From: Clostridium tyrobutyricum DSM 2637 = ATCC 25755 = JCM 11008
GTDB lineage: Bacteria; Bacillota; Clostridia; Clostridiales; Clostridiaceae
Direction of reading: 5' to 3'
NCBI RefSeq assembly: GCF_000359585.1
Contig: NZ_APMH01000034.1
Location: 1 to 45,441 of the forward strand
Length of the DNA: 45,441 nucleotides
The translations under genes were made by a program, and so were the position numbers. The notes beneath the pieces were generated by a model. The model was not told the origin of the DNA. It did not search any database and was given only the letters and a program-made list of their open reading frames with translations. Below, piece after piece: positions 2,877 through 38,822 of the stretch. The first letter of the stretch is position 1. The number at the start of each line of letters is the position of its first letter.

Positions 2877-3038
2877 GAAGTACTACCTTTAGATAAGAAT
2901 AAAATTGTTACAACAACTGAGTATCAAACCTTAATCAAGAAAATGACAAAGTTAGAAGAGGAGAATGAGATATTAAAGAAAGCTATGGCCATAGTGTATC
3001 CAGAAAAAACAAATTGTTTCGAGCTGTATAAAAGATGA
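2877..3038 (+). pseudogene. IS3-family OrfA fragment
   Basis: A 53-codon open fragment without a usable start encodes the leucine-zipper end typical of IS3/IS150 OrfA, including KMTKLEEENEILKKAMAIV. The OrfB part is missing or unrecognisable downstream, and no terminal repeats were identified. It is a relic of an insertion sequence. Confidence 0.6.
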
Positions 3039-3039
3039 G

Positions 3040-3540
3040 GACAGGTTACTCGAAACTGCTGTGTAGGTAGAAGTTTCAAATCATTGAAACCAAGGTGTTG
3101 TTGTCAAAAGCAGTGGTATTGAACGTTGGGGAAAAGGCAAAACAGACAATTTCGTTAGATGTGTGTTATGGAGATGAACGAAAGTGAACCACTGATGGCG
3201 TTTGGAAAAGCTCAGATGCTGTCAAAAACCAAAACAAATGTATGGTTATTTTGGGATGAGTTTGAAAGAAACCTACTTACTGATAAACGGCAGCCGTAAT
3301 AAAGATGGCATGAACATAATACAGGCTTTTATATGGAACTGGAGAACCTACGATTTTGATGTCAAGGGAAAAATTACGAGCAAAGACTTTGTGAGGATGA
3401 AAGTACTAATGCAAAATATAGGGGCGGAACAGCTTGTAGTAGTGAAGAAACTTCTGCAATGGAAATGGAGCAAAGAAGCTGTATTATTCTGTCTTATATT
3501 TTAGTCAACCATATTAAAAAATAATGGGAGGAACTAAATG
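3040..3540 (+). other. Degenerate coding relic, origin not recognised
   Basis: The base composition here is visibly richer in G+C than the surroundings and all three frames show short protein-like stretches. One frame is open for 100 codons (3202-3504, with MYGYFGMSLKETYLLING), while another reads like KTKTNVWLFWDEFERNLLTD before stops. No ribosome site precedes the long frame. I read this as a decayed mobile-element gene with frameshifts, possibly from the same insertion as the OrfA relic just upstream. I do not recognise the family. Confidence 0.3.
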
Positions 3541-6748: not shown

Positions 6749-6882
6749 AATAAAACCTCCAATATTATATCTATTGTAATTAATTATAGCATTTATGACA
6801 AAAAAATCAAACATTCATATTGAATGGTAAATATGGTAGTGATATAATTAATTTGTAAGGTTTTAGTTATCCCGAGTTTATG

Positions 6883-6917
6883 AAGGGCGCACTTATACAC
6901 CATAAATGGTGTGTGCG
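6883..6917 (-). other. oriT with RSF1010-like nic site
   Basis: The minus strand reads TAAGTGCGCCCTT at 6895-6883. This contains the classic MOBQ nick core TAAGTGCG/CCCT of RSF1010-type plasmids, so the expected cut is on the minus strand between 6888 and 6887. Immediately 5' of it on that strand is an imperfect hairpin, CGCACACACCAT (6917-6906) paired with ATGGTGT (6903-6897) and GTGCG (6892-6888), as in known MOBQ origins. It lies 90 bases upstream of the relaxase. Transfer would lead through the partition genes and end with the relaxase. Confidence 0.85.
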
Positions 6918-6951
6918 AAATTTTTTAAGAAAAAATTTATTAAAATAAAAG

Positions 6952-7008: not shown

Positions 7009-9033
7009 ATGGCGATATATCATTTTTCAGGTCAAATAATAAGTAGGTCAAATAAACAAGGTAGACAACGTTCAGCTGTTGCCTGTGCTGCCTATAGAAG
7101 TGGAGAAAAATTACACGATGAAAGAAGTCAAAGTGATAAATTTTATAGAAGAAAAGTTCAACCTGTAACAATGATATTAGTACCTAAAGACGCTCCTTCA
7201 TGGGCTAGTAGTAGGGAAAGATTATGGAATGAAGTTGAGAAAAAAGAAAAACAATATAATTCACAATTAGCAAGAGAGTTTAATATTGCACTTCCTAAAG
7301 AATTAAGTAATGAAGAACAGGAAAAGCTTACTTATGATTTCTGTAAGAAGAATTTTTCAGATGAAGGAATGGTTGCTGATATTGCTATTCATAGAGATAA
7401 CAAAGATAATCCACATTTTCATGTCATGCTTACAGTAAGACCATTTGACGAAAATGGAAAATGGGGAGCTAAATGTAGAAAGAAAATAGTTACAGATAAA
7501 AAGACAGGTAGAAAAAAATCTATGAGAATAAATACTGTAGATTGGAACGATAAAAATAAAATGAAACAATGGCGTAAGTCATGGGAAGATTTTTCAAATC
7601 GTGCCTTGCAGGACAAAGGTATTTCTATAAGCTGTAAGAGTAATAAAGAGTTAGGAAAAGAAACTAGACCTACAATACATGAAGGATATGCAGCAAGAAA
7701 TATGGTTAAAAGAGGTAAAATATCAGATAGGGTAAATAGCAATAAAAGAGTGAGAGAGTATAACAGAACCATAATAGAGTTGAATAAGTATAAGCAGGAA
7801 AGAGAAAGAAATTTAAATAATAAAAAAGTCTATTCTTGCCTGACTAAAGATGAAGTTAGAAATCTAAGTAAAATAGCAAAATATTTAAAGACATATGTAA
7901 ATATTGATACTATCAATAAAAGGAAAGAACAACTTAAAAATTGGAATAAATCTTTGAAATTTAAAGATGATACTGTAGATAAAATTAAGGCTTTAAATAG
8001 GATAGAAAAGGAAGAAGCCATTCTTTCTACTGCTGAAAATATTCTTGAAAATAGAGCAGATAAATTTATAAATAAGTATTACAAAGATTTAGAAATAGAT
8101 AAATTAAATAAGCATGAAAAGATATATTTAGTTGATACAAGTTTAAGAGAAAATAAAATACTTGATGAAAAGGAAATCCAACAAGTTAGAAGATATGCTG
8201 AAAATGATATGCTTGAAAATAATTTGAAGGATATTTTGAATAATAAGATTAGATTTTCTATTTCTATAAAAAATAATATAAATCATTTAGAAAATTTATT
8301 TAATGAAGTAGAACAAAAATATAATATTTCTTTTAAAGATATAGAAAGTGTAAAAAATGCTCCTGATGGTGCAATAAAGTCATTGAATAAAATTACTATA
8401 GCAAGAGAAAAATTAAAAAAGTCATTAGAAATTATGAATAAAATTTATGATAATCAATTAAAAGAAATGTACCCTACATGGGAAGGTAGAACTGGAATGA
8501 CTATTGAAGAAAAAGAAATTTTTATAATGGCTAAAGACTATTATTGTAAAACATTAAGACCAGAAGATTTTCAAAGTCCACCAAGAAAATATAGCCAAGA
8601 ACAACAGATTGAAATACTCTATTTACTTAAAAATGATAAAAATATTTTAAGACAAAAATATACTGATTTTAAATTAAGTAATAAGGGATTTGTATATATG
8701 TTCTATGCTGAATGTGCCTCTCATACTGATGAACTGGATAGTAACAGTAAAAAGATGATAGATGAATATTTTAGCAAGGATAATTATTTGAGAGATTTCA
8801 AAGTTTATAGAACTAATGATAAAAATAATTATAGTGATGAATTTGATAAATTTGATAAATCTATACAAGAATATGAGGAAAATACCAATAGACCTAAACA
8901 TGGTAATTTATTATTTGATAGTTTAAGAACTCTAATAAATCAAGTTGCAATCAGAAATAAAGATGAATTAGAGAGGGAAAAAGAATTGAAGCTAAAGCGA
9001 AAAAGGAAGAGAAGAAGGAATATAGGCTTATAA
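7009..9033 (+). CDS. mobA: MobA/MobL-family (MOBQ) relaxase
   Basis: A 674-aa conjugative relaxase that nicks oriT and stays covalently attached to the transferred strand. The N-terminal ~200 residues are a MobA/MobL domain: a candidate catalytic Tyr29 in CAAYRSGEKLHDER and the HUH metal-binding motif HRDNKDNPHFHVML (His128, His136, His138). The rest is a long Lys/Glu-rich helical region with several coiled coils and no recognisable primase or helicase motif. It ends in a very basic tail. GAAAGGAGGGG precedes the ATG. The adjacent nick site is of the MOBQ type, which agrees with the protein family. Confidence 0.93.
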   Translation: MAIYHFSGQIISRSNKQGRQRSAVACAAYRSGEKLHDERSQSDKFYRRKVQPVTMILVPKDAPSWASSRERLWNEVEKKEKQYNSQLAREFNIALPKELSNEEQEKLTYDFCKKNFSDEGMVADIAIHRDNKDNPHFHVMLTVRPFDENGKWGAKCRKKIVTDKKTGRKKSMRINTVDWNDKNKMKQWRKSWEDFSNRALQDKGISISCKSNKELGKETRPTIHEGYAARNMVKRGKISDRVNSNKRVREYNRTIIELNKYKQERERNLNNKKVYSCLTKDEVRNLSKIAKYLKTYVNIDTINKRKEQLKNWNKSLKFKDDTVDKIKALNRIEKEEAILSTAENILENRADKFINKYYKDLEIDKLNKHEKIYLVDTSLRENKILDEKEIQQVRRYAENDMLENNLKDILNNKIRFSISIKNNINHLENLFNEVEQKYNISFKDIESVKNAPDGAIKSLNKITIAREKLKKSLEIMNKIYDNQLKEMYPTWEGRTGMTIEEKEIFIMAKDYYCKTLRPEDFQSPPRKYSQEQQIEILYLLKNDKNILRQKYTDFKLSNKGFVYMFYAECASHTDELDSNSKKMIDEYFSKDNYLRDFKVYRTNDKNNYSDEFDKFDKSIQEYEENTNRPKHGNLLFDSLRTLINQVAIRNKDELEREKELKLKRKRKRRRNIGL

Positions 9034-21267: not shown

Positions 21268-21453
21268 ATGAGTTCTGATATTGTTATTACATCTATAGTG
21301 TGTGTTACGATAGTTGGTATAGTATGTATTTTTGCTATACTTGCATACTTTAAAGATAATGCTATTTTTAGATATAAGAATAGTTCAAAAGATAAGAGTA
21401 ATGAAATTTCAATTACTGTTGATAATGATAAAGATAAAAGCTCAAAAAACTAA
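21268..21453 (+). CDS. 61-aa single-pass membrane peptide, possible type I toxin
   Basis: Starts at ATG 21268 after GGGGGTGA. Residues 4-27 are a strongly hydrophobic helix (IVITSIVCVTIVGIVCIFAI) followed by a short polar, charged tail ending DNDKDKSSKN. Hydrophobic helix plus charged tail, a long structured leader and complementary 5' and 3' untranslated parts are the features of type I toxin loci. It is longer than typical toxins of this class (30-50 aa), and a simple small membrane protein of the plasmid backbone is the alternative. No antisense promoter is certain, although a TATAAT occurs on the minus strand downstream near 21540. Confidence 0.5.
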   Translation: MSSDIVITSIVCVTIVGIVCIFAILAYFKDNAIFRYKNSSKDKSNEISITVDNDKDKSSKN

Positions 21454-21482: not shown

Positions 21483-21580
21483 AGTTAATCCAAACATATA
21501 AACCTGAAACCACAATGGCTTCTTTTATATATATTATAACATATTTTTTGAAAATTAAACTTGAAATTATAAGTAAATTT

Positions 21581-21640
21581 AATCCCATACTATAGTTAAG
21601 TATATATATTTATACTTATATATAACTGTAGTATGGGATT
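21581..21640 (+). repeat. Long hairpin with a G:U pair
   Basis: A 17-base arm (21581-21597) starting AATCCCATAC pairs with 21624-21640 ending GTATGGGATT, with one U:G wobble valid only in plus-strand RNA. An inner AAGTATA/TATACTT stem continues it. No gene abuts it. It could be a terminator, an RNA element or a single-stranded DNA structure. Confidence 0.55.
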
Positions 21641-21780
21641 TATATATTACAAATTAAAATATGAAATAAATATTATTATATAGTATGTAGAATTATATGT
21701 ATATATAGATATTATAAATATAAATGTAGTATATATACTAGATGATATTATAAAAGTATAAAATTAAGAATAAATATAAT
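21641..21780. other. Extremely AT-rich, gene-free stretch
   Basis: About 140 bases almost entirely of A and T with many TATATA and ATAAAT steps. It carries no ORF and no clear repeat unit. It lies between a long hairpin and the first A-type stem-loop element. It may be an easily melted DNA segment such as part of an origin, but nothing proves this. Confidence 0.3.
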
Positions 21781-21900
21781 AGGGAGCTACACTCCCTAAA
21801 ACCCTAGTCTACCGCCTTACATGATAGAAGGTGTCAACTTCATACCTATGTTGATACCTTCTATCATTCCAGTTGGTGCCCATATAAAAACCCTTTCTAT
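21781..21900. ncRNA. Structured element A1
   Basis: Order of parts: hairpin AGGGAG-CTACA-CTCCCT (21781-21797), the invariant stretch CCCTAGTCTACCGCCTT (21802-21818), a variable stem ATGATAGAAGGT/ACCTTCTATCAT with inner TCAAC/GTTGA (21821-21867), loop TTCATACCTAT (21839-21849), and an invariant tail CAGTTGGTG. It shares these constants with element A2 at 22639, while the stem sequences are unrelated yet still pair. Compensatory change of this kind indicates selection on a folded RNA or folded single-stranded DNA. The orientation is not known. Read on the minus strand, the short hairpin would end the element like a terminator. Confidence 0.7.
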
Positions 21901-21996
21901 TTTTCTATACATATAATATATAAATTAATTATTAAAATATAAATAAATATGTTATAATATTGGTATAGTAATTAATTAATATACGGGGTGATTAAG

Positions 21997-22524
21997 TTGG
22001 CACGAAAGACAATTAAAAGGCTTGAAACTGACTTAAAAAACATGGAATTTCTATATAAACAGGAACTTGAAGAAAATAAAAGATTAAGAAATTTGTTAGA
22101 AGGTAAAAACGTTATAGCACAATCTGAATATGATTTATTACTAAAAGATTATGAACATATGAAGGATATGAGGGATAACTATAAAATACTTTATGATAAT
22201 TTAAGAATTAGATATGATGGACTTAAAGATAGTACAGTAATTAATAACCAAACTATTAAAAATTCACGTGGTGCAGGGAGAAAAGCATTTGATAGTTCAG
22301 ATGTAATAAAAAGGATATATGAGTTATATATACAGGGCAATAGTCTTAAAGAAATTGCAAATACATTAAATGGTTCAGAAATTAAAACTAAACGTGGGGG
22401 TACTTGGTCAAAAAGTTCTGTAAGATTTATTTTATTAAATTATAAAAATGTTGAAAATGAATTTATAGATGAAGATACTTACAATATTACAGTAAAGTTG
22501 CTGAACGATAGAAAAAAGAAATGA
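21997..22524 (+). CDS. Coiled-coil protein with serine-recombinase-type DNA-binding domain, no catalytic domain
   Basis: A 175-aa protein starting at TTG 21997 (six bases after GGGGTG). Residues 1-85 are a long coiled coil (TIKRLETDLKNMEFLYKQEL onward). Residues about 105-160 match the DNA-contacting 'Recombinase' module of large serine recombinases: VIKRIYELYIQGNSLKEIAN, then LNGSEIKTKRGGTWSKSSVR. The catalytic serine domain is absent, so it cannot recombine DNA itself but may bind it. It is flanked by structured elements A1 upstream and B1/A2 downstream, and a broken paralogue with the same upstream sequence lies at 34505. A regulator or binding factor of those elements is a reasonable guess, nothing more. 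Confidence 0.65.
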   Translation: MARKTIKRLETDLKNMEFLYKQELEENKRLRNLLEGKNVIAQSEYDLLLKDYEHMKDMRDNYKILYDNLRIRYDGLKDSTVINNQTIKNSRGAGRKAFDSSDVIKRIYELYIQGNSLKEIANTLNGSEIKTKRGGTWSKSSVRFILLNYKNVENEFIDEDTYNITVKLLNDRKKK

Positions 22525-22538
22525 GATTTATATTTTTA

Positions 22539-22621
22539 GAAGATTAGATAGTGGCACTCCGCCTGTAAAAATCTAACGCTCTACTATCTTTTTACAGACT
22601 ACACGCCACTATCTAATCTTC
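22539..22621. ncRNA. Structured element B1
   Basis: An outer 17-bp perfect stem (22539-22555 with 22605-22621, arms GAAGATTAGATAGTGGC and complement), internal loops, then an inner 8-bp stem TGTAAAAA/TTTTTACA (22564-22571/22589-22596) closing a 17-base loop TCTAACGCTCTACTATC. The inner stem and loop are identical, 33 bases, to those in element B2, while the outer stems are unrelated in sequence. It begins 14 bases after the stop of the upstream gene but has no T-run, so it is not an ordinary terminator. Confidence 0.72.
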
Positions 22622-22638
22622 CCAAAATAAAATATAAT

Positions 22639-22760
22639 GGGGAGCTACACTCCCCAAACCCCTAGTCTACCGCCTTCAATAACTACTTTTTAATTCCGTA
22701 CCTACATTAAAAAGTAGTTATTTCAGTTGGTGTCTACAAAAAAGCCCCTCTAGTTCGTTT
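22639..22760. ncRNA. Structured element A2
   Basis: Second copy of the A family. The short hairpin is GGGGAG-CTACA-CTCCCC (22639-22655), a compensated variant of the A1 hairpin. CCCTAGTCTACCGCCTT follows, then a 17-bp variable stem (22678-22694/22706-22722) with no sequence similarity to that of A1. The loop is TCCGTACCTAC and the tail CAGTTGGTG, with further similarity to about 22755. No ORF overlaps it. Confidence 0.7.
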
Positions 22761-22845
22761 CTATTCTAGGTTTAATAATAACTAAAATATTTTATATTGA
22801 TAGAAGTCTTTAAGAAAATGTCATTAGGATAAAAGTGTTACTTTG

Positions 22846-22876
22846 GAATAAGTTGTATCAAAGACACAACTTATTC
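22846..22876 (-). terminator. Hairpin after the 117-aa minus-strand gene
   Basis: GAATAAGTTGT (22846-22856) pairs with ACAACTTATTC (22866-22876), six bases beyond the stop at 22882. The T-tract on the minus strand is weak. Confidence 0.55.
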
Positions 22877-22881
22877 TTCTT

Positions 22882-23235
22882 TTAATACCAGGAAGTTTTC
22901 TTTAAAAATACAATCCTATTTGTATATAATATTTTTAAAATATAAAATACTTCCTTTTTTTCACTTTGCTCTCTCTCAGGATAATATGCTTCATTTTCTT
23001 CATTAAAAATTATATCATCTTCTTTGTTTTCAAAAGTAAGTTTCAATATTTCTTCAAATGTTTTATCTTCTACAATAGTGTATTTTGTTCCAAATACATC
23101 TTCATTATTAAGCTTTTTAATTTCATTTAAAGTATTTTCTAATATTGTATAAGCTTTTAATCCAAAGAAATTAGTTGTAATTCCTTCCTTTAATAAATCT
23201 TCAATTTTGTTTATATTAGCACTAAGTTTTTCCAT
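22882..23235 (-). CDS. Hypothetical acidic protein
   Basis: A 117-aa, Glu/Lys-rich soluble protein, ATG at 23235 with AGGAGG ten bases upstream. I do not recognise a family. Helices are predicted at the N-terminus (MEKLSANINKIEDLLKEGIT) and centre, and the C-terminus is more hydrophobic (VFYILKILYTNRIVFLKK). It has a near-consensus promoter of its own, in which the spacer carries two GGAGTA boxes also seen before the small peptide gene at 23983. It may therefore belong to the same regulon. No toxin, phage or enzyme signature is visible. Confidence 0.6.
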   Translation of the reverse strand: MEKLSANINKIEDLLKEGITTNFFGLKAYTILENTLNEIKKLNNEDVFGTKYTIVEDKTFEEILKLTFENKEDDIIFNEENEAYYPEREQSEKKEVFYILKILYTNRIVFLKKTSWY

Positions 23236-23282
23236 TTTCTAAAGACCTCCTAAAATTCTTTTTATATCTTAACTATACTTAT

Positions 23283-23311
23283 ATTATACTCCATTTGTAC
23301 TCCATTGTCAA
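23283..23311 (-). promoter_or_regulatory. Consensus sigma-A promoter with tandem GGAGTA boxes
   Basis: On the minus strand TTGACA (23311-23306) and TATAAT (23288-23283) are exactly 17 bases apart. The spacer contains TGGAGTACAAATGGAG, two direct GGAGTA-type boxes. A very similar block precedes the gene at 23983, suggesting a shared repressor. Confidence 0.75.
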
Positions 23312-23359
23312 TAGCATTTATATATTTTTGATGAAAAACTTAAAAAATAAGCTAATACC

Positions 23360-23416
23360 AAGGAGGAATTTATTGGGATAACTTCGTACCTTCGCTATCC
23401 CAATAAATTCCTCCTT
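23360..23416. ncRNA. Structured element A3 (21-bp hairpin with A-type loop)
   Basis: A perfect 21-bp stem (23360-23380/23396-23416; AAGGAGGAATTTATTGGGATA is the left arm) closes the loop ACTTCGTACCTTCGC. The loop core TTCGTACCTTC matches the loops of A1 and A2 (consensus TYCRTACCTWY), but the flanking A-family constants are absent. It lies 11 bases before B2. Confidence 0.65.
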
Positions 23417-23427
23417 ATAAAAGTTTC

Positions 23428-23502
23428 GGGCAGGGGCGACGTGCAGCTTGTAAAAATCTAACGCTCTACTATCTTTTTACAAACTGCACACCGCCCCTGC
23501 CC
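23428..23502. ncRNA. Structured element B2
   Basis: Three stacked stems: GGGCAGGGGCG/CGCCCCTGCCC (23428-23438/23492-23502), GTGCAG/CTGCAC (23441-23446/23484-23489) and TTGTAAAAA/TTTTTACAA (23448-23456/23474-23482). They close the same 17-base loop TCTAACGCTCTACTATC as in B1. The outer stem is GC-rich here and AT-rich in B1, with pairing kept. No coding sequence overlaps it. Confidence 0.72.
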
Positions 23503-23571
23503 TTATTCTTTTTTATCCAATAAGTAATATACACACATTTCAAAATAACTTTTTCCCTAATTACAAATTTT

Positions 23572-23682
23572 ATCAAAGCAGGAAAATAGTCAAGGGTACG
23601 CTTCGCCGAATAAAAAATTTTTTAAGAAAGAACACTTAAAAAGTTTTTTATTCGCTCTTGACAATTTTCCTTTAACTTTGAT
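23572..23682 (+). ncRNA. Structured element C (111-base interrupted hairpin)
   Basis: Stems in order: ATCAAAG/CTTTGAT, AGGAAAAT/ATTTTCCT, GTCAAG/CTTGAC, and a 20-bp apical stem (23607-23626/23635-23654) with one U:G pair valid on the plus strand. The left side carries an asymmetric bulge GGTACGCTTCGC that recalls the A-type loop. It lies in gene-free DNA after B2. Confidence 0.6.
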
Positions 23683-23935
23683 TTTTAGTATTTAAGGGGA
23701 AAAGGTATAAATATATATAGATATATGATTTTTTTATTTTCATAAGAAAGGTAAGGCTTAAATCAAGGCTGTAATGGTATTTAAAAATCAAATAAATATA
23801 ATTACACCTTTAATATTAAAAGTTGCTGTAATAGGCTCATACTGCCTATAAAATGTAAGGACAATACGAAAAAAGAGCTTTACAAAATTGAGTTTGAATT
23901 TTGTACAAATTTTTCATAAAAATAGGTAAATACTA

Positions 23936-23964
23936 TTGACAACGGAGTACAATATAAGTGTAGT
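23936..23964 (+). promoter_or_regulatory. Promoter of the 43-aa peptide gene with GGAGTAC box
   Basis: TTGACA (23936-23941) is followed by ACGGAGTACAATATAAG and TGTAGT. The block aligns with the minus-strand promoter at 23283-23311 except for an 11-base gap that removes its TATAAT, so the -10 here (TATAAG or TGTAGT) is weak or repressed. Confidence 0.5.
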
Positions 23965-23982: not shown

Positions 23983-24114
23983 GTGATAATCATAGGAGTG
24001 ATTAAAGACATAATTACAATTGCAGTTGGGATATTAAGCTCCTATAAGATTTTGTTAGAAATTAAAAAACTAAAAAGCTCCAAGAAAAAATCTCGGAGCC
24101 ACCGCAAAAAATAG
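23983..24114 (+). CDS. 43-aa hydrophobic/basic peptide, type I toxin-like
   Basis: Starts at GTG 23983 after a strong AAAGGAGGTG. The peptide is one hydrophobic helix (IIIGVIKDIITIAVGILSS) followed by a very basic tail (KKLKSSKKKSRSHRKK), the classic layout of clostridial and bacillary type I toxins and holin-like toxins. Within the tail codons GCTCC and GGAGC form a short hairpin, a feature often seen where an antisense antitoxin RNA terminates. The next 70 bases hold another hairpin (24145-24184). No antisense promoter is certain. It is too short for most gene finders. Alternative: a small holin-like peptide without an antitoxin. Confidence 0.6.
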   Translation: MIIIGVIKDIITIAVGILSSYKILLEIKKLKSSKKKSRSHRKK

Positions 24115-34412: not shown

Positions 34413-34504
34413 TTTTTTAATCTTGATAAACTCACAGTAGTGTATAACCTTCATATATGGTTCAATAATAGTATAGTAATTAATTAATAGACGAGGTGAT
34501 TAAG

Positions 34505-34697
34505 TTGGCACGAAAAACAATCAGACAGCTTGAACTTCAAGTCAAAAATGCTGAATTTATGTATAAACAAGAGCATGAAGAAAATGAACTTCTAAAGAAA
34601 GAATGGAAGGTAAAAATGTAATTTCTAAACATGAATATGACCTGTTATTGAAGGAGTATGACAACTTAAAAAACATTAAAAACAACTATGAAATGGG
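34505..34697 (+). pseudogene. Broken paralogue of the 21997-22524 gene
   Basis: From the TTG at 34505 the frame gives MARKTIRQLELQVKNAEFMY and on, closely matching the start of the 21997 gene. A one-base shift near 34600 then moves the match to another frame (EGKNVISKHEYDLLLKEYDN). The match stops near 34697, so the DNA-binding half is gone. The upstream 35 bases (TATAGTAATTAATTAATA and the ribosome site) are also nearly identical, pointing to duplication followed by decay. Confidence 0.75.
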
Positions 34698-35081: not shown

Positions 35082-38000
35082 ATGTACGATGATGTAATAA
35101 AAGAAATACCAGCAGAGTTAATGCTTTATTTAAATGAAATAGCTGAACGGCTTTGGTCTGGTCATGCGGCAGTAATGGTTGGAGCTGGATTCAGTAAGAA
35201 TGCCAAAAAAGGTGATATAACAAAGAAAAAATTTTTAGATTGGACTCAATTAGGTAACGTTTTTTATGAAAAAATATATGGAACAAGGCCAAATGGAGAA
35301 CAACATTATCTGAATGTTTTGAAATTAGCTAATGAGGTACAAGCTGCTTTTGGTAGATCAGTATTAGATCAAATCCTTCGTTCACAACTTCCTGATAAAG
35401 AATATAAACCATCAGAATTACATATAAAACTAATGGAATTACCCTGGACTGATGTATTTACAACGAATTATGATACATTACTTGAACGTTCTTGTGTTAA
35501 TGTTACTTCACAAAAATTTGATACTGTTATTTGTAAGGAGGATTTGGTTTATTCAGAAAAACCAAGGATAATAAAGTTACATGGTAGTTTTCCATCGAAA
35601 CGCCCTTTCATTATAACTGAAGAAGATTATCGCAAATATCCAAAAGACTTTGCACCATTTGTTAATACTGTCCAACAATCTCTTTTAGAAAATACATTAT
35701 GTTTAATAGGTTTTTCAGGTAATGATCCTAATTTTCTTCAATGGATAGGCTGGATACAGGATAACTTAGGAAAAGAGAACTCTCCTAAGTTATATTTGAT
35801 TGGTAATTTTTCACTATCGGATGCTCAAAAGAAACTTCTCGAGCAGCGAAATATTATTTTACTTGACTTTTCAGTTTGTCATGGAGTAAACAGTAGCCAT
35901 GAAAAAGCATTAGAGCTTTTTTTTGACTTCTTATATTCTAAAAAGAAGATTGGAAATAATCTTGAATGGCCTAAAGAAGAGCAATTATCTCATAAAACAA
36001 TAGAAAATAATCCAATTAATGAAATTAAGTTAGTCATACGAGAGTGGGAAGTAACCCGAGAAAATTATCCTAATTGGGTAATTCTACCAGAAGATCGGAG
36101 AGGAGTGTTGTGGGAAAATACCAACAGTAGTAGCTATTTAATTTATAGTCTTAGTAAGTTAGATGCACCTGATGATTTGAAATTTTTGTTCGAATTCAAC
36201 TGGCGTATGGAGAGATGTTTATATCCAATTAATAATCTCTTGGGGATATACGAAAAGGTTATTGATCGCTATAATCCTTTTCCTAATGTATTAAGTATAG
36301 ACAATTCAATAACTCCCCAAGATGCAGAATACAAGACTTTGCCATGGCCTGAAATTGAACAAAAATGGCTTGAACTCCTTAGTTCACTCATGCGCTCTTA
36401 TAGAGAAGAAGGATTAATTGATAAGTGGAATTCGATAGATGGAAAGTTTAAAATACTTTATAAATTTTTATCAACAGAATTGGTTGCAAAACTTAGCTAT
36501 GAGCGATGTCTTTGTGCTTTGTTTTTGCTAAAGATAACGGAGGTTAAAGATAGAATTAAGGAGTGGCCTGTAAATAGTTCACTTCCGTTATGGGAAGCAA
36601 AACGTGCTGGTATATTAGCTGAAATTGGAGATATTAATGCTGCTGCAAAATTGCTTGAACAATCTTTAAGTAATATTCGAAAACAGTTAAACCTGTCACC
36701 TGTATCAAATAATTATTTATTAGTATCTCAAGAATCTTATGTGATGCAATTACTGGATTATGTAAATTGTTCAATAGAGTTAAGAAATTATAATTTTGAA
36801 GGACAAAATGAGAATAGAAAAAGATTTAATGAACGTTGGAATAATCTTAAACAATACAAGTGTGATCCATGGAACGAACAAAATCTATTTGAAATTAAAT
36901 TAGGACATAAGCCAGTTCCAAGTTCAAATAATAACAAAAAAAATGATTTTGATATTGGACGTGTTACGACCATCTATAATTTTAATAACATTGATGATGA
37001 AGCTTTAACAGCATATTCTTTCTTACGATATTGTGAAGAATTAGGTACTCCATTTAGGATTCAAAATACATTTTATAGTAAAAAAGCAGTTAAAGGTACA
37101 CTAAAGCGAATTGTAAATAAGTTACCTTTCTGGGCTTTTGCAACGTTAATAAGATTAGGAGATGTAAAAGTTGTTAGTAATGTATTAGATCGTGAATATA
37201 TCTATAAAATGGATATATCAGGTATTGACTTGTTAATTGATAATTATTTATCAGCAATAGAAAATGCTTTTCCAGATATAGCATTAGGTAATAGGTTTAA
37301 GAAAGATAATTTTGCGATTGTATTAGCTTCGGTAATACCAGAGATTTTGTCTCGACTTTGTGTTAAATGCTCAGATAATGCTAGATTTAAATTATTAGAT
37401 TTTCTTAATAGAATTTATTTATCTGAAAATAAGCATAAATTTAAAAAAATTTTTAATCTTACTAAAAGATTAATATCTTCATTATCGGATAAAAAACAAT
37501 ATGAATTATTGCCACGATTACTTAAATTTCCCATAGTCTATGGTGATAAATTTATTGAAAAAGATTTTCCAGATCCTTTTTATTTTATATCAATTAATAA
37601 TGAATTCAAAGGTAATTTTGCGAAAATAAAAATTGATAATAGTGTTGTTGGAGAATTAATTGAAAAGATTAAATCTAATAATTCAGAAAGAAAGATAGCA
37701 ACAATGCGTATAGAAAAGTTATATAAGCTTGATCTTCTTAATAAAGAACAAATAGAAGCATTTTCGTGTACTTTATGGAGTCAAATAGATCAGAACTCTC
37801 ATTTTCCAAAGAATACTGATTTCTATAAATTTGCATTCCTCGATTTACCTCATTCTGAAACAATTAAACCAGAGAAACTATTTAAAGAATATATATTAAA
37901 AGAGCCCTTTCCTATACAGGACTTAAGCAAAAATAAAGGTATATCAATAACAAATGGAAATATACCTTTATTTGATGAAATTATACAGGGAACAAAAAAA

Positions 38001-38822
38001 CTATCATTAAATAATAATTATATCAAGTGGTCAGAAGATGAAGTATTAATAATTTTGGACAAATTAATTAAGTGGTGGGATTCTGACAAACACTACTTAA
38101 AAGATGATACTCCAAGAATGCTTGTTTCGCTTTCAGATGAATTCCATAATAGGTTTATGTACTTGGTAGATATTCTTTCAAATGTAATAGCACCAGTGTT
38201 ATCTATTAATATTAATGAAGAAATCAAAAAAAATATTCAAAGGTTGTTTAAGGAACTTAATGAATATGAAATACCATGTTTACAAGCAAAAGCAGCATGT
38301 TTACAATTTATTGATGATAACAAGAAAAATATATATTTTGATATAGTAAATGCTATTACTTCTAAAAATCATTCCCGTATCGTTGATGCCTCATACGCTA
38401 TTATAAAACTATGTGGAATTACAAATATATCCGATATATTGAAAGTAAATATCAATGATATTCTTTATCTTTTAAGTCAACAGGTTAAATGGAGAAGACG
38501 AGAGGCACTAGTTTCTACATTAAATGCAATTGATATAATTATATCCGAGTATTCACATTATTTAGATGAAAAACTTTTGTCAGATTTGCTAATAGGTTTG
38601 AAATATCTTTGTGACGAGAGCAATCCAGTATATATAGAAGTTGATGTGGATATTCTAGATATATTATCATATAGAAAGAGTAGCGCTCATCTTGCTTTTA
38701 CACTATTTCAATACTTTTCTAATAAAAAAGAAGATATACCTCATATTATTATTGATTGGAAAAATATTTGTTTTGATAAAAATGAATTTGCAGAAATACG
38801 CAATCAATGGATTAAGCAATAA
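35082..38822 (+). CDS. SIR2-domain antiphage NADase (DSR-like)
   Basis: A 1246-aa protein. Residues about 25-280 are a SIR2-type domain: NAD-binding GAGFS (34-38), TTNYD (127-131, catalytic-region Asn129), LHGS (166-169, His167) and IGFSGNDPNF (209-218). The remaining ~950 residues are helical, without membrane segments, and look like the large alpha-solenoid C-terminus of defence-associated sirtuins. In DSR1/DSR2-type systems this part senses a phage protein and the SIR2 domain then depletes NAD. It is a single-gene unit with a strong terminator after it and mobile relics before it, as expected for defence cargo. The exact DSR class cannot be decided here. Confidence 0.82.
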   Translation: MYDDVIKEIPAELMLYLNEIAERLWSGHAAVMVGAGFSKNAKKGDITKKKFLDWTQLGNVFYEKIYGTRPNGEQHYLNVLKLANEVQAAFGRSVLDQILRSQLPDKEYKPSELHIKLMELPWTDVFTTNYDTLLERSCVNVTSQKFDTVICKEDLVYSEKPRIIKLHGSFPSKRPFIITEEDYRKYPKDFAPFVNTVQQSLLENTLCLIGFSGNDPNFLQWIGWIQDNLGKENSPKLYLIGNFSLSDAQKKLLEQRNIILLDFSVCHGVNSSHEKALELFFDFLYSKKKIGNNLEWPKEEQLSHKTIENNPINEIKLVIREWEVTRENYPNWVILPEDRRGVLWENTNSSSYLIYSLSKLDAPDDLKFLFEFNWRMERCLYPINNLLGIYEKVIDRYNPFPNVLSIDNSITPQDAEYKTLPWPEIEQKWLELLSSLMRSYREEGLIDKWNSIDGKFKILYKFLSTELVAKLSYERCLCALFLLKITEVKDRIKEWPVNSSLPLWEAKRAGILAEIGDINAAAKLLEQSLSNIRKQLNLSPVSNNYLLVSQESYVMQLLDYVNCSIELRNYNFEGQNENRKRFNERWNNLKQYKCDPWNEQNLFEIKLGHKPVPSSNNNKKNDFDIGRVTTIYNFNNIDDEALTAYSFLRYCEELGTPFRIQNTFYSKKAVKGTLKRIVNKLPFWAFATLIRLGDVKVVSNVLDREYIYKMDISGIDLLIDNYLSAIENAFPDIALGNRFKKDNFAIVLASVIPEILSRLCVKCSDNARFKLLDFLNRIYLSENKHKFKKIFNLTKRLISSLSDKKQYELLPRLLKFPIVYGDKFIEKDFPDPFYFISINNEFKGNFAKIKIDNSVVGELIEKIKSNNSERKIATMRIEKLYKLDLLNKEQIEAFSCTLWSQIDQNSHFPKNTDFYKFAFLDLPHSETIKPEKLFKEYILKEPFPIQDLSKNKGISITNGNIPLFDEIIQGTKKLSLNNNYIKWSEDEVLIILDKLIKWWDSDKHYLKDDTPRMLVSLSDEFHNRFMYLVDILSNVIAPVLSININEEIKKNIQRLFKELNEYEIPCLQAKAACLQFIDDNKKNIYFDIVNAITSKNHSRIVDASYAIIKLCGITNISDILKVNINDILYLLSQQVKWRRREALVSTLNAIDIIISEYSHYLDEKLLSDLLIGLKYLCDESNPVYIEVDVDILDILSYRKSSAHLAFTLFQYFSNKKEDIPHIIIDWKNICFDKNEFAEIRNQWIKQ

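Follow-up and report, generated by a model that had tools for sequence, protein, structure and literature searches.

Our best reading of the two hairpins B1 and B2, which lie in the 45,441-nucleotide stretch of contig analysed here (the window), is that they serve a conjugative plasmid as a single-strand hairpin signal, acting either as folded single-stranded DNA (ssDNA) in an sso/ssi-like manner or as minus-strand RNA. The more specific reading, that they are two copies of an ssDNA hairpin signal on the minus strand which serves sso/ssi-like priming, is given a probability of roughly 0.35 and is ranked slightly above the RNA version. Both copies carry an exactly repeated core, their pairing is concentric around it, the stem pairs that differ between them are changed on both sides, and the G-U/G-T pairs are biased to the minus strand. 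A core that is kept while the stems change and yet remain paired is most naturally read as a folded single strand that is recognised at its tip, since an operator in double-stranded DNA would need no concentric outer arms and a terminator would need no fixed loop of 17 nt.

Fold predictions place B1 at 22539-22621 and B2 at 23428-23502, with the minus strand as the one inferred to fold. B1 is built of a 17-bp outer stem, an internal loop of 7x7 as seen on the plus strand, a 9-bp inner stem and a loop of 17 nt; B2 on the plus strand has a GC-rich outer stem of 11 bp, a middle stem of 6 bp and an inner stem of 9 bp. The 33-base core (22564-22596 in B1 and 23449-23481 in B2, on the minus strand, where the loop reads GATAGTAGAGCGTTAGA) is an exact match between the copies, TGTAAAAA-TCTAACGCTCTACTATC-TTTTTACA, and it is the longest exact direct repeat of the window, the corresponding length in 20 first-order Markov shuffles being 16-19. 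Identity between B1 and B2 is 33/33 within the core against 19 of 42 aligned columns outside it (Fisher 6e-8). The similarity extends beyond the core, reaching 91% over 47 bases (22561-22607 against 23446-23492), so that the sequence on its 3' side also shows relationship and the outer parts of the two copies are in some measure related. The coordinates, the identical core and the outer stems (17 bp in B1; 11 bp GC-rich plus 6 bp in B2) given by the first-pass annotation were all reproduced. Its inner stem is present as well, at 9 bp instead of the 8 bp it had been assigned, and its description of the outer stems as unrelated is too strong in view of the 47-base stretch. The same annotation had set each B element next to an A-type loop, and these neighbours were found: 11 bases separate the end of the A3 stem (23416) from B2, as it had stated, and the gap from B1 to A2 (22638, as modelled) is 16 bases where it had counted 17. 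Within their own genome, copies of B occur on this contig only.

When the two copies are aligned column by column, their inner and outer pairs share one register, in which eight pairs are changed on both sides and none on one side only; registers slid by 1-3 columns contain only 0-1 pairs with a double-sided change. Covariation of the outer stems had been proposed earlier as a check on this element, and the outcome agrees with it, although pair counts from two sequences are weak evidence of covariation. The inner stem has an extra closing pair, C-G in B1 and T-A in B2, and this compensated difference weakens the idea of a recent duplicate with random stems. The GTGCAG/CTGCAC 6-bp stem of B2 has no intact counterpart in B1, the corresponding positions making up the 7x7 internal loop on the plus strand; on the minus strand this loop is 3x3 when folded as RNA and 4x4 as DNA. 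All four B strands fold strongly with DNA parameters (z from -9.8 to -11.1 against shuffles), and so do the B regions together with their A neighbours as plus-strand RNA (z -11.2 and -12.7). The window contains 37 strong palindromes compared to 1-7 in 10 Markov shuffles, a count that includes B2, A1, A2 and A3; the internal loop of B1 hides it from the scan.

Such paired arms could also arise without any selection. According to PMC8794818, template switching can match the arms of a palindrome and give double-sided changes; it is the appropriate null hypothesis for the pairing, though not for the fixed core. An explanation along these lines, with replication keeping the palindromes perfect and the core being a functionless recent copy or mobile patch, would account for the fact that every counted change is double-sided and Watson-Crick, and it fits the richness of the window in palindromes and the lack of relatives elsewhere. 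However, homogenisation of the arms leaves the invariant 17-nt loop and the one-strand G-U bias unexplained, as well as the way similarity decays at the edges of the core, where a C-G/T-A pair is compensated, and the A and B families both behave in this way in the same orientation. We therefore consider this explanation rather improbable.

The A family comprises, on the minus strand of the window, A1 (21780-21895), A2 (22638-22749) and A3 (23360-23416). A1 has a covarying stem, a conserved loop and, at the 3' end on the minus strand, a hairpin resembling a terminator; A2, which adjoins B1, has the same architecture, and A3, which adjoins B2, has a 21-bp perfect stem and an A1/A2-like loop without the conserved 5' part. 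All five elements, in the order A1, B1, A2, A3 and B2, are found within 1.7 kb and in one orientation, whereas the local genes run both ways. Elsewhere in the genome, A is found on the small contigs C54 and C56 (L128 6966-7100 and L129 245-395), directly upstream of the start of a gene that we take to be topoisomerase-like from reading its sequence, and these two copies possess the same terminator-like hairpin sequence as A1 and A2. The two small contigs have 479 bp in common at 94.6%, reaching the contig ends. Among the four sequences A1, A2, C54 and C56, the pair counts leaving out A3, 10 pairs are changed on both sides and none on one side. The paired cells amount to 97.8%, and shuffles scored as high in 0 of 500 cases on four of five measures and in 4 of 500 on the fifth, for a structure that is an RNAalifold consensus omitting one badly pairing column pair and hence leaning towards pairing. 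Kissing of the A and B loops was not indicated: in 20 comparisons, the duplexes that the B loop forms with segments of A did not surpass those of shuffled sequences (lowest p 0.057).

The mismatches of B indicate which strand folds. There are six mismatched positions in B1 and three in B2 on the plus strand, seven of the nine being A-C and none G-T. An A-C mismatch on the plus strand corresponds to G-U or G-T on the minus strand, and with these pairs allowed B2 forms there an unbroken stem of 29 bp. Other palindromes in the window have 8 G-T and 6 A-C on the plus strand, and the difference gives a hypergeometric value of 0.015, which is post hoc and computed on mismatches that are not independent. 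Energies calculated for RNA are -41.5 against -32.7 and -52.3 against -43.4 kcal/mol (minus against plus; gains of 8.8 and 8.9), those for DNA -22.2 against -20.3 and -29.3 against -26.9 (gains of 1.9 and 2.4). The minus strand also folds better in four of the five A elements, the plus strand being better in A1 and in the two control palindromes at 23545-23708 and 21530-21682. Thus the folding strand of B, according to these models, is probably the minus strand. The view that the changes were strictly Watson-Crick and hence pointed to DNA was dropped once the A-C mismatches were seen to be G-U on the minus strand, and the same equivalence makes RNA about as likely as DNA.

Therefore, the possibility that B is a minus-strand RNA hairpin (a small RNA, a leader or a 3' element) whose apical core has a protein or a second RNA as binding partner has to be taken seriously, and we hold it as a tentative alternative placed just behind the ssDNA reading. 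It is favoured by the G-U gain, which RNA energies put much higher than DNA energies do, in combination with the terminator-like ends of A1 and A2. Moreover, a consensus promoter with 12 of 12 matches (23311-23283, minus strand) precedes the 117-aa gene located between B1 and B2 (22882-23235, minus strand) and would read through this gene into A2. However, from B2 to 24900, where the scan ends, no minus-strand promoter is listed, B1 sits behind the terminator of A2, and promoter-like sites in the scanned region are rarer than in shuffles (23 against 29.9). The RNA reading is further burdened by the result of the loop duplexes, by the absence of an Rfam match at gathering score and by the lack of a constant gene context. 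The A elements are found upstream of the start of the topoisomerase-like gene (C54 and C56), before the 178-aa gene, and after and, in the case of A3, upstream of the 117-aa gene; of the B elements, one follows the 178-aa gene and the other lies upstream of the 117-aa gene. With no constant gene neighbour for A or B, a role as cis-regulator of a single gene is disfavoured. This freedom of gene context, together with the plasmid location and the predicted transferred strand, favours ssDNA.

The contig encodes an Alp7A-like actin, a MobA/MobL relaxase (7009-9033) and a TrbL-type protein, from which it would be a conjugative plasmid or a part of one. Immediately upstream of the relaxase gene, a MOB_Q-type oriT is predicted at 6868-6920 (minus strand), consisting of a hairpin followed by AAGTGCGCCCTTC (6894-6882), which is one mismatch away from a MOB_Q nic consensus. 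The window has 4 oriT-like matches against 4.6 expected, a number not above chance, and the prediction is carried by the best match, by its hairpin and by its proximity to the relaxase gene, not by the match count. With an oriT at this place (near 6885), the minus strand is the predicted transferred strand, and the B region would come late in the order of transfer on the contig. A nic-like site at 23589-23604 had been regarded as an oriT candidate and was dropped, because 6868-6920 suits the relaxase better. The surrounding segment 23545-23708 (minus strand) and L128 6494-6610 both have a long hairpin followed by GAAGCGTACYCTTGA and are 76% identical over 82 bases; they may represent a further element of nic-like or origin-like type, and its 15-base motif was found in one of 194 family genomes, namely its own. 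A 27-bp perfect palindrome at L198 3179-3261, near a distant homolog of the 178-aa protein, carries GTCAAGGGTGCTACGC, which is reminiscent of the window's nic-like motif.

The 178-aa gene (21988-22524, plus strand) encodes a protein with a C-terminal Recombinase-type HTH (PF07508), and 14 bases separate its stop codon from B1. Its three best homologs outside its own genome stand at 51%, 45% and 32%, and the DNA fetched around the homologs contained neither the B core (up to 8 mismatches) nor the B loop (up to 3) nor the A consensus (up to 2), and a constant association of this protein with B is accordingly less likely. The protein had no match in plasmids and none in IMG/VR. A remnant second copy of the gene start is present at 34455-34695, of which 34455-34661 is 74% identical to 21947-22154. 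The search with the 117-aa protein returned no homolog. The neighbourhood also contains small hydrophobic ORFs at 21268-21453 and 23983-24114 that look type I toxin-like, and two inverted promoter-like copies with TTGACAAYGGAGTAC (23295-23341 and 23907-23952, 87% identical), perhaps under one shared regulator. A DSR2 defence protein is encoded at 35082-38822 (PADLOC, 1486 bits).

The position of B1 so close behind the 178-aa gene, and the T-rich sequence TTATTCTTTTTT that follows B2 on the plus strand, would suit a transcription terminator or mRNA 3' end. B1, however, has no T-tract on either strand and an invariant 17-nt loop is not needed for termination, so that this explanation appears very unlikely; our terminator scan was restricted to loops of 3-8, and B lies outside its reach. 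It could also be argued that B is a recombination or nicking site of folded ssDNA (attC or oriT/IS200-type) and that an 885-bp unit containing the 117-aa gene could be excised between B1 and B2, given that they are direct copies 885 bp apart with one ORF between them and that a tyrosine recombinase gene is located on the contig at 33057-33647 (the integrase evidence, Phage_integrase, covers the protein of this gene only). An attC site has the R'' box RYYYAAC and the R' box GTTRRRY at the base of its stem, which is kept as a structure. No such boxes were seen by inspection at the stem base of B, where the conserved part is the tip, and the attC-like site put forward in the first-pass annotation thus finds no support. 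In addition, upstream of the recombinase gene there are separate palindromes, which resemble those of a similar gene in L196, and we rate recombination as the least probable of the explanations considered.

The search of plasmids for the core that the first-pass annotation had recommended was performed with blastn against the 72,556 plasmid records of PLSDB, in which B had no match. A further blastn against plasmids gave weak matches, and none of the 40 matches listed, out of 43, touched an A or B element. A phage set contained no B relative (261-base query, E 1e-5 only). The 17-mer search of IMG/VR returned two stretches, neither with such a hairpin; for the 14-mer, 108 stretches were reported and the best hairpin in the 80 occurrences examined was 7 bp, none being judged B-like; the hairpin pattern gave 22 stretches (21 legible) with none judged B-like, and the A pattern gave none. 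The exact 15-mer of the B core was absent from 12 other genomes of the genus and occurred in at least 116 stretches of genome contigs; the arms pair in the tested register at 8/8 in the two own sites and at no more than 6/8 in the others (120 loci examined, among the matches listed). The model searches were run with stricter filters. Covariance model R1 (B) reached E <= 1 in eight of 200 family genomes, its own and seven others (best E 0.023 to 0.81); one stretch in each of five of the seven was judged not B-like, a judgement outside of which lie G088, G193 and further hits in G035, G034 and G047. Among 391 class genomes, partly the same as the family set, only the own genome was found by R1 at E <= 0.05. 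The A pattern was confined to the own genome among 206 family genomes, and model R2 (A) hit the own genome and five others out of 200 (best E 0.035 to 0.96), the hits in the two of the five that were inspected being not A-like. Two stretches fetched from a T4SS relative, G084, contained neither the B core nor the A consensus; its downstream genes look chromosomal, and two loop matches with 3 mismatches fall in a coding region and have no hairpin. Records very near the own genome may be missing from the collections, and absence therefore says little about sister strains.

It had also been considered earlier that the core might belong to a known terminator or intron; at gathering score, Rfam 15 assigns B to no family, and its sole match in the window is a group II intron D1-D4 piece (RF01999) at 3037-3159. 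Below threshold (E up to 10), mir-4861 scored 33.2 bits at B2 (E 2.3e-4) and 23.4 bits at B1 (E 0.12) against a gathering score of 100, and MIR408 scored 26.3 bits at B2 against 64; we read these as generic long-hairpin matches. No description of such a core was recognised in the accessible portions of the literature, for which the core sequence itself was not a query.

Several of these results count against the ssDNA signal that we prefer. There are two copies in one genome, and no similarity was found in PLSDB though known single-strand origins should be there. The late position in transfer, the absence of the CS-6 motif (discussed below) and the better folding of A1 and the two controls on the plus strand point in the same direction. 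Nevertheless, we infer that the loop is being read, that the setting is ssDNA and that the outcome is priming. The active form would be the folded minus strand, that is, the predicted transferred strand, in which the long stem would lift and present the fixed apical core, a 9-bp A/T-rich stem with the 17-nt loop. The outer stem would need only to pair, its letters being free, and a protein or the replication machinery would read the apical core on plasmid ssDNA during transfer or lagging-strand synthesis, with an sso/ssi-like recruitment of priming as the result. The earlier suggestion of a reader of the loop thus survives in its RNA and single-strand-origin versions and has lost its attC version. 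It could even be, though this is more speculative than either of the two main readings, that A and B together belong to a class of signals not yet described from Gram-positive plasmids. Such signals would be hairpins of the minus strand, several to a replicon, in which the apical core is fixed and the stems vary freely; read on the transferred ssDNA or its RNA, they would initiate second-strand synthesis or early gene expression once conjugation has taken place. The priming and expression of Gram-positive conjugative plasmid DNA while it is single-stranded are poorly known, and B, a short hairpin in which the 33-base core is constant and two stem versions occur naturally, offers a candidate signal open to experiment and a bait with which to capture the protein or RNA recognising the core.

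Comparison with known systems reveals partial likenesses. The attC site resembles B in having a structural stem with the letters conserved elsewhere, at the base in attC and at the tip in B. CS-6 (TAGCGW) in a hairpin loop marks some classes of sso only; the motif is absent from both B elements and is not enriched in the window (9 copies against 11 expected), one copy being found at A3 (23392-23397, minus strand). Accordingly, B shows neither of the two sso features accessible to a sequence test, namely similarity and CS-6. A long covarying stem with a highly conserved loop is a known type of RNA motif, as in the PBC-28-3 RNA (PMC8632094), which adds to the case for RNA; PBC-28-3, unlike B, immediately adjoins a start codon, and the likeness is one of description. 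The EGeRS1 regions of the pLS20 family are likewise repeated and rich in inverted repeats, belong to Gram-positive conjugative plasmids and act by an unknown mechanism (PMC8708921), but they are about 400-750 bp long, GC-rich and directly before ribosome binding sites, whereas B is 75-83 nt and placed otherwise. Frpo/ssi elements share with B a folded ssDNA on the transferred strand and several copies per element (PMC11541004). B differs from them in having no recognised anti-defence gene beside it and in lying far from the predicted oriT on the contig, and the promoter scan found no -35/-10-like site in 22539-22621 or 23428-23502, being a duplex scan that misses fold-only promoters. The sso elements, ICEBs1 sso1 and the pBAA1 sso, are strand-specific hairpin regions on mobile DNA like B; both have three stem-loops, unlike B, for which moreover no sequence similarity was found in plasmids. 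PMC4595007 reports that the pBAA1 sso, remade with other letters and the same fold, still worked, so that structure can stand in for primary sequence, and the lack of similarity is therefore compatible with an sso role for B.
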